Source: Methanobacteriota archaeon (GTDB lineage Archaea; Thermoplasmatota; Thermoplasmata; Methanomassiliicoccales; UBA472). Taken from it: DNA of 34,244 nt. Every line of letters begins with the position of its first letter. Position 1 is the stretch's first letter. A program made the position numbers and the translations under genes. Under the pieces are notes generated by a model. It saw only the letters and a program-made list of their open reading frames with translations, did no database searches and was not told the origin of the DNA. The stretch lies in NCBI GenBank assembly GCA_029560215.1, contig JAKPZB010000150.1:1-34244 (forward strand), given 5' to 3'. Positions 30,951 through 32,619 of this stretch are shown one piece after another.

Positions 30951-31874
30951 TTAGACCTTCACCAGGTCGGACCAGGCCGCGTAACGGGCGTCTTCGCCCA
31001 TGGCCGCCTTGTGGAACACCTCGCCCAGCCGCTTGGTCATCGGCCCGATCTTTCCATCGGCGATGAGCCGGTTGTCTATGGAGCGTATGGGGGATATCTC
31101 GGCGGCGGTCCCGGTCAGGAACACCTCGTCGGCCATGTACAGCTCGGAGCGGGTGAGGTCCTTCTCAACCACCTCGATCCCCAGGTCGCGGCCGAGGGTC
31201 ATCATGCAGTCGCGGGTTATGCCCTCCAGGATACCGGCGGACACCGGCGGGGTGAACAGCTTCCCGTTCTTGACCATGAACACGTTCTCCCCGGTTCCCT
31301 CCGCAACGTTGCCGTTGGGGTTAAGCATCAGCGCCTCGTCGCAGCCGTTCTGGATCGCCTCCAACTTGGCCATCACCGAACTGACGTAGTGACCGCTGAC
31401 CTTGGCGTTCAGCGCCGCGGCGCGGTTGGAGTACTTCTCCCATGACGACGTGATTATGTTCGCGCCCTGCTCCACCTGGTCCTCGCCCATGTACACGCCC
31501 ATGTGGGTGCACATGATGCTGACGTTGGTGCCCAGCTTGCTGGGGTTTAGCCCGATCTTGAACTCGGGGTGCACGCCGTAGTATGCGAGCGGGCGCAGGT
31601 AATCGCCCTTCGGATCCGCTTCCCTAACGACCTCTCGGCATGCTTCGCACAGCTCGTCCAAGGAATACGGCACCTTCATCTGCAGGACCTTGGCCGAGTT
31701 CAAGAAGCGGACCATGTGGTCCCGCAGCCGGAAGATGTTCCTTCCCTTGTCGGTGTGGTAAACGCGTATCCCCTCGAACACCCCGGTCCCGTAATGGAAC
31801 CCATGCGCCAGCACGTGCACCTTGGCGTCCTCGAACTCCACCAAACGCCCGTCCATCCAGATCTTTCCTTTCAT
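30951..31874 (-). CDS. ilvE: Branched-chain amino acid aminotransferase
   Basis: IWMDGRLVEFEDAKVHVLAHGFHYGTGVFEGIRVY, ALMLNPNGNVAEGTGENVFMVKNG. Confidence 0.93.
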   Translation of the reverse strand: MKGKIWMDGRLVEFEDAKVHVLAHGFHYGTGVFEGIRVYHTDKGRNIFRLRDHMVRFLNSAKVLQMKVPYSLDELCEACREVVREADPKGDYLRPLAYYGVHPEFKIGLNPSKLGTNVSIMCTHMGVYMGEDQVEQGANIITSSWEKYSNRAAALNAKVSGHYVSSVMAKLEAIQNGCDEALMLNPNGNVAEGTGENVFMVKNGKLFTPPVSAGILEGITRDCMMTLGRDLGIEVVEKDLTRSELYMADEVFLTGTAAEISPIRSIDNRLIADGKIGPMTKRLGEVFHKAAMGEDARYAAWSDLVKV

Positions 31875-31883
31875 CATATCACC

Positions 31884-32264
31884 TCAGATGGCGTTGACCG
31901 CCCTTATGTAGCGGTCCGGATTGGTCGCCTGGAGCATCTTCTCCACTTCCTCTATGGAACCGATCAGACGAGCCTTCCCGAAGCTGTTGCCCACCAGGGC
32001 GTAGGCTTCCTGGCGGCTCTCGTCCACCAGCTCCACCTGGATTATGTCGTGAAGCCTCTGCAAGCTGTCCACTGCCCATTCCGCCTGCTTGCGGTCGGAG
32101 ACGGTGAGGACCACCCGGGACTTGCCGGGCATCTCGCATTTCCCGACGACGATGGTGTCCACGTTGATTTTACGGCGGGTGAACTCGCCCATGATCCTCT
32201 GCATGACCCCGAACTCGTCGTTCACGACCATCGATATGACCTCCATGTCGATCCCTGTCCTCAC
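31884..32264 (-). CDS. ACT-domain protein, acetolactate synthase small-subunit-like (IlvN/IlvH-like)
   Basis: ISMVVNDEFGVMQRIMGEFTRRKINVDTIVVGKCEMPGKSRVVLTVS...; directly upstream of ilvE. Confidence 0.75.
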   Translation of the reverse strand: MRTGIDMEVISMVVNDEFGVMQRIMGEFTRRKINVDTIVVGKCEMPGKSRVVLTVSDRKQAEWAVDSLQRLHDIIQVELVDESRQEAYALVGNSFGKARLIGSIEEVEKMLQATNPDRYIRAVNAI

Positions 32265-32482
32265 TTCTTTCCTTTTATCGGCATCTGATAGTTACGCACG
32301 CTGTGGTTCTTCTTTATCGGCTGGTAATAGCCGTCGTCGTTGCGGCCATTGTCCGGGCCGCACGGATACTTCGGCGTGGATAACCAAGGCAGCTGATGGC
32401 TGTCGCTGCCCTCGATCACCTTGGGGCGACGCCCCCCGCCTCTGACCAAGCCAAGCACCAGCACGAGCGATAACATTCTCAT
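32261..32482 (-). CDS. Small ORF (73 aa), Leu/Val-rich N-terminus, overlapping the IlvN-like start; unknown/leader-like
   Basis: MRMLSLVLVLGLVRGGGRRPKVIEGSDSHQLPWLSTPKYPCGPDNGRNDDGYYQPIKKNHSVRNYQMPIKGKK; stop overlaps the GTG of the IlvN-like gene; GAGGT upstream. Confidence 0.5.
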   Translation of the reverse strand: MRMLSLVLVLGLVRGGGRRPKVIEGSDSHQLPWLSTPKYPCGPDNGRNDDGYYQPIKKNHSVRNYQMPIKGKK

Positions 32483-32528
32483 TGACAGACCAACCTCACA
32501 ATGAACGGGAAAGCCGACGGCCCCCCTT

Positions 32529-32588
32529 TCAGATACCCAAGACGCGCTGGACCAGAACAATGTCGGTGCGAATGCTCAGCGCGCCCAT
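32529..32588 (-). CDS. Candidate BCAA-rich leader peptide MGALSIRTDIVLVQRVLGI*
   Basis: ATG lies ~27 nt downstream of the centre of a TTAAATAT TATA box (leaderless); 9 of 19 residues are I/L/V; upstream of the ilv operon. Confidence 0.4.
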   Translation of the reverse strand: MGALSIRTDIVLVQRVLGI

Positions 32589-32611: not shown

Positions 32612-32619
32612 ATATTTAA
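32612..32619 (-). promoter_or_regulatory. TATA box of the ilv leader/operon, overlapping the ABC ATPase stop codon
   Basis: - strand CTTAAATATG; spacing to ATG 32588 fits an archaeal +1 at the ATG. Confidence 0.5.

Follow-up and report, generated by a model that had tools for sequence, protein, structure and literature searches.

Ribosome-mediated attenuation is a textbook mechanism of gene regulation for which we know of no archaeal case. The ilvGMEDA, ilvBN and leuABCD operons of E. coli carry leader peptides in which end-product codons match the pathway, including rare Leu codons in the leu leader. These E. coli leaders are longer than the archaeal leaders described here, and differ from them in being led by a Shine-Dalgarno site and in carrying 1:2, 2:3 and 3:4 hairpins and an intrinsic terminator. 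Before ilvB, the ilvBNC attenuator of C. glutamicum has a short leader peptide (MTIIRLVVVTARRLP) that contains I/V/L codons, and its transcription starts one nucleotide from the leader start codon, so that the transcript is nearly leaderless (PMC11857589). Its hairpins overlap and follow the uORF, and they form a proven three-hairpin terminator/antiterminator switch within a leader of 292 nt (PMC11857589). The archaeal leaders resemble this system in their I/V/L codons before ilvB and their predicted leaderless layout, but differ in the short distance from uORF stop to ilvB (44-66 nt), in having a TATA box and, at the stop codon, a single strong hairpin, and in lacking a U-run terminator.

Actinobacteria also have an I/V/L-rich uORF at ilvB and a Leu-rich uORF at leuA (PMC1262725), as the archaea do, and the uORF of the M. 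tuberculosis ilvB1 attenuator has LVVI control codons (PMC13236596). Unlike the archaeal leaders, the actinobacterial and M. tuberculosis ilvB leaders carry poly-U terminators (PMC1262725, PMC13236596). The actinobacterial LEU element is different again: it has a pseudoknot in which Leu codons base-pair with the Shine-Dalgarno site of leuA (PMC1262725). Mycobacterial Cys uORFs share the C-terminal cluster of pathway codons, leaderless transcripts are common there and attenuation has been proposed, but they concern another amino acid in another domain of life (PMC4633059). Our search of the open-access literature for attenuation in archaea, and for leader peptides and uORFs on leaderless transcripts, returned only bacterial cases.

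The archaeal locus lies on the minus strand of a 34,244-nucleotide stretch of DNA, analysed as a whole and called the window here. A predicted leaderless uORF encoding MGALSIRTDIVLVQRVLGI occupies 32529-32588 (ATG at 32588, TGA at 32531-32529, 19 codons). Its TATA box, TTAAATAT (32612-32619), was read from the sequence and overlaps the stop codon of a gene for an amino-acid ABC-transporter ATPase. A preliminary description of this DNA had counted 9 I/L/V residues among the 19 and placed the TATA centre about 27 nt from the ATG; both values agree with the sequence on re-reading. Just past the uORF stop, at a distance of 2 nt, is a hairpin absent from that description, H2 (GGGGGGCC-GTC-GGCTTTCC, 32508-32526), which is predicted by folding and by covariation among nine same-genus sequences. 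A possible second hairpin, H1, would pair 5' with 3' codons inside the uORF (32537-32583, predicted fold). H2 is followed by a candidate Shine-Dalgarno sequence, GTGAGGTTGG (32490-32499), for ORF2 (32261-32482), then by a gene for an ilvN-like ACT-domain protein (31884-32246, ATG at 32246; PF22629, E 9e-16, with a score under the cut-off of TIGR00119) and by ilvE, encoding a branched-chain aminotransferase (30951-31877; TIGR01122, E 6e-115, over the cut-off). The ilvN-like gene and ilvE, which had been named as the next genes, are thus both present, but the unannotated ORF2 comes first. ORF2 encodes 73 aa, is conserved on sequence comparison in the window's genus as well as in three further ones, and has a hydrophobic start and the conserved pattern STPKYP..DNGR.D.GYY.PIKK; it belongs to no known family, with no match in Pfam or NCBIfam.

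Searches with the ACT protein took in 61 genomes of the order at first and 148 afterwards, besides a collection of named genomes, in which the nearest record is that of a Methanomassiliicoccaceae archaeon, UBA472, at 98% identity. In the window's family, each of the 20 genomes that have upstream DNA carries the uORF before ilvN, with peptides such as MRAAALPGVIVQVLRALGV, MRSTAACKIIVLLVSERYVVI, MCSAAPRSVIVVYVSGQLVI, MLSVAQTPVLIVVVEQLVLGI and MSSLAVSPGGNSVLVSLRILVI. Other families have the gene order ilvB-ilvN, and the uORF stands 5' of ilvB (e.g. MNAALIFVNSSLLVSVQVLVV, MEQTALTAGSVSSIVSGQLLVVLVVR and MKESYLSPSFLAVGSVGSVVL), as it does in Thermoplasmata beyond the order (MARSAYSKELAILGLLLGVLVVLRIESP, MCEPAGRCVNVVILLILVVLLDLRILSP and MLESAGQGKLVPILVVLGVLVDLRILRP). 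The leader-bearing ilvB upstream regions number 33 and come from several families and orders (two, L054 and L149, are identical in sequence). A second ilvB, with ilvC after it, has its own leader, which in the window's genome is the GTG-started MSNNNTGERTSLLLPSLTAVVIL (L138). A third leader type, a uORF ending in Leu codons, precedes leuA in 16 of the 16 genomes listed and reads MSIIIVAGHGLLRA in the window's genome, which accordingly has leaders at three branched-chain operons (ilvN, ilvB and leuA).

The leader peptides, 13-29 aa long and 19-29 aa at ilvN and ilvB, drift in sequence; ATG and GTG starts and TGA, TAG and TAA stops interchange while the I/L/V tail is kept. Across genera they have almost nothing in common except I/L/V near the end, and within the window's genus the last 11 codons are nearly invariant. 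The preliminary description had set its idea against relatives, asking for a short ORF, an I/L/V tail and a TATA-start spacing that outlast sequence drift and taking loss of the ORF as grounds for giving the idea up; all three are kept across genera and families, and on this count the idea stands. No leader of this kind was found upstream of hisG, pheA or trpE; among the genes compared, it is confined to ilv and leu. Among the families sampled, ilvB lacks a uORF of this kind in most Methanomethylophilaceae and in several Thermoplasmatales-like genomes (L120-L122, L136, L140-L145, L150, L151). In most Methanomethylophilaceae (L056-L110), ilvN stands alone, apart from ilvB; its start codon is near a TATA box, but it lacks a uORF, and there the leader of ilvN seems to have been lost.

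A fixed rule captures the layout: a TATA-like 8-mer 26-35 nt before an ATG or GTG, an ORF of 11-37 codons, and at least five I/L/V among the last 10 residues. On both strands of the window, its single match is the leader uORF. Within 400 nt upstream, the rule finds 15 of 20 ilvN regions (20 of 20 when the TATA demand is dropped) and 29 of 52 ilvB regions, against about 0.15 per 20 and 1.0 per 52 in dinucleotide shuffles. Control regions upstream of hisG, pheA, trpE and leuA paralogs from the same genomes gave one match in 57. In 46 of 53 ilv leaders, 30-34 nt separate the start codon from the first base of the best TATA 8-mer. This spacing points to a transcription start that would put the ilv leader start codon at leaderless distance. 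In leuA leaders the same distance is 41-52 nt, and there is a short 5' UTR in which GAGG often stands 5' of the start. The signs that the uORF may be translated are indirect: its frame is kept, the TATA spacing fits leaderless initiation, and start and stop codons interchange.

The residues at the end of the leaders follow the pathway. V, L and I make up 34.5, 20.1 and 9.8% of the last 8 residues before ilvB, 26.9, 21.9 and 12.5% before ilvN, and 2.3, 38.3 and 7.0% before leuA, where the peptides are polar in their body and contain a few Leu. Together, I/L/V account for 61-64% of these positions in ilv leaders, and ilvB and leuA leaders differ in V versus L (Fisher p 1e-13). A leader ORF with clustered end-product codons, as in described attenuators, is thus present (Val/Leu/Ile at ilv, Leu at leuA), which is what codon sensing predicts. 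Codon choice is also skewed. The rare codon TTG supplies 54% of Leu codons in the leaders of ilvB and 53% in those of leuA, but its share falls to 7% within the ilvC and leuA genes of these genomes (p about 1e-16); ATT supplies 73% of Ile codons in ilvB leaders versus 12% in the comparison. Overuse of rare codons is a known attenuator hallmark, and the T-rich leader codons may also serve RNA pairing.

H2 starts 0-5 nt (mostly 0-3 nt) past the uORF stop in 53 of 53 ilv leaders. Its arms vary widely (GGGGAGCC/GGCTTTCC, GGGAAAACC/GGTTTTCCC, GGCCGCC/GGCGGTC, GAGGACG/CGTCCTC, AGGACATCC/GGATGTCCT); the sequence is almost freely variable and has no conserved loop. Among the nine sequences from the window's genus, pairing holds in 87.7% of cells, both sides have changed in three pairs, and the covariation score was reached by 0 of 500 shuffles. 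Across 13 ilvB leaders, aligned like the first set with MAFFT but partly misaligned, 85.6% pair (matched by 12 of 500 shuffles) and the covariation score is weaker (45 of 500). The folding z-score of the H2 region averages only -1.6. Sequence comparison shows the uORF and the position of its start, as well as the I/L/V tail and H2.

No U-run generally follows H2 across the 53 ilv leaders (T reaches at most 56% at any position; L022, with TTTTTG, and L094, with a seven-T run after the uORF stop, come near to being exceptions), so H2 does not qualify as a bacterial intrinsic terminator. We also considered Shine-Dalgarno sequestration by H2, as in an ermC-type translational attenuator, and rejected it: with the 5' arm of H2 blocked, fold prediction gave no consistent effect, Shine-Dalgarno accessibility going up in 12 and down in 8 of 33 leaders (p 0.33). 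By eye, we identified no conserved pairing between H2 and the uORF. H1-type complementarity between the 5' and 3' parts of the uORF exceeds letter shuffles set-wide (z 4.7 and 6.0); because this is suggestive yet comes with no H1 covariation within the window's genus, we do not rely on H1. Rfam 15 gave no match in the window region at E-values up to 1 and none in 12 loci at the gathering score, and we found no sequence relation between the archaeal leaders and the actinobacterial ilvB and leuA leaders. Many leuA leaders (L169-L184) have a layout unlike that of ilv leaders, in which the region around the start codon (GCAATGAG or similar) is complementary to sequence past the stop (CTCATTGC; z 5.6 versus letter shuffles).

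Our data make it probable, and we hold this with good confidence, that the uORF is the leader peptide of a ribosome-mediated attenuator for archaeal branched-chain amino acid genes. The sensing half of this reading is strongly supported. Judging by the TATA spacing, transcription would begin no more than a few bases from the first base of the uORF, which would let ribosomes load straight onto the 5' end. With ample charged Val, Leu and Ile tRNAs, the ribosome would reach the stop codon and leave, H2 would fold behind it, and downstream expression would drop. When charged tRNA is scarce, the ribosome would stall at the terminal I/L/V codons with its leading edge over the 5' arm of H2; H2 would then fail to fold and the biosynthetic genes would be expressed. 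The contact between ribosome and hairpin comes from geometry, since the terminal I/L/V codons are within a ribosome's reach of H2 and a ribosome held there would cover the 5' arm; that ribosomes stall, that H2 lowers expression and that control runs in this direction are inferences.

A leaderless uORF that senses branched-chain amino acids had been proposed in the preliminary description, and the conserved uORF, tail and spacing, with residues that follow the pathway, bear this out. The carrying over of bacterial attenuation holds only in part: the pathway codons are present, but we found no U-run terminator and no clear antiterminator. The system works like attenuation, and the missing U-run sets it apart from the bacterial terminator type. 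H2 could act through termination by FttA on untranslated RNA, through pausing of RNA polymerase, or through blocked ribosome loading. Polarity in archaea has been ascribed to FttA, a termination factor that acts on untranslated RNA (PMC12548453), and our preferred guess is that H2 together with ribosome release would expose the untranslated transcript to FttA. It is possible, though we would stop short of calling it probable, that attenuation of this kind is conserved among Thermoplasmata, with a ribosome on a leaderless leader controlling a hairpin right at the stop codon, and that its output is an archaeal step such as FttA-dependent termination of untranslated RNA, in place of the U-run terminator of bacteria or the sequestration of a Shine-Dalgarno site.

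Several other explanations deserve weighing. A leaderless uORF could merely deliver ribosomes, its coding content being irrelevant, with downstream translation by coupling or reinitiation. The leaderless start and the short distance from uORF stop to ilvB suit this role, which has been discussed for such short ORFs (PMC12548453, PMC4633059). However, coupling in E. coli and Haloferax volcanii is weak past a distance of 30 nt (PMC12548453), which is less than the gap of 44-66 nt seen here, and this gap contains a stable hairpin. Ribosome delivery would also leave unexplained why Val codons prevail at ilv and Leu codons at leuA, and why TTG is overused, and we consider it improbable. Alternatively, the uORF might not be a codon sensor and might instead encode a small hydrophobic peptide with a function of its own, or an arrest peptide that depends on its specific sequence, as the hydrophobic I/L/V-rich tails and the near-invariant last 11 codons in the window's genus might suggest. 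Yet likeness across genera is almost limited to I/L/V near the end, the leuA leaders are polar-bodied, and at 13-29 aa most leaders are too short to span a membrane, which makes this reading decidedly improbable.

It is very improbable that the ORF is incidental to a conserved RNA structure bound by a protein or small molecule, as has been proposed for the actinobacterial LEU element: the frame, start position and stop are kept through changes in length and switches of start and stop codon. H2 is indeed conserved, as are some nucleotides (e.g. AGC[GT]NGCAG) in the leaders of several families, but the sequence of H2 is nearly free and lacks a conserved loop. Short ORFs are common, and a chance intergenic ORF might be suspected. 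The rate of such matches in controls (1/57) and shuffles (about 1/52), and the recurrence of the uORF across families and at three operons of its own genome, leave this next to no probability; conservation already refutes it.

The AGC[GT]NGCAG motif codes for S-x-Q, lies 5' of the last I/L/V run, and is common to the ilvN leaders of the window's family and the ilvBN leaders of two other families. An ABC ATPase gene stands 5' of the leader in both the ilvN and ilvBN settings (L130). On the simplest reading of these sequences, the window's operon would have lost ilvB and kept the leader. Two further observations concern ilvB loci. In one Methanomethylophilaceae group (L049, L052, L053, L054, L081), ilvB has a strong GGAGGTG site and no in-frame ATG, GTG or TTG at the expected place; ATT or ATC right before AGAGGATC seems to be its start codon. 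Before ilvB in genome G322 (L134), a 34-aa hydrophobic ORF ends in LLLSVLVILLIIIVQ, with a GC-rich hairpin and TTCTTTTTT nearby. It could be either a leader of the terminator type or the gene for a small membrane protein; because of its different layout and the second possibility, we left it out of the leader count.

What was a finding about one ORF has grown into a system that takes in three branched-chain operons and a class of archaea. If our reading is correct, archaea either independently evolved or share charged-tRNA sensing via leader peptides, which ribosomes would enter through leaderless initiation. The system would offer a direct handle on archaeal transcription-translation coupling, and it would explain how methanogens of this order may control their branched-chain amino acid genes.
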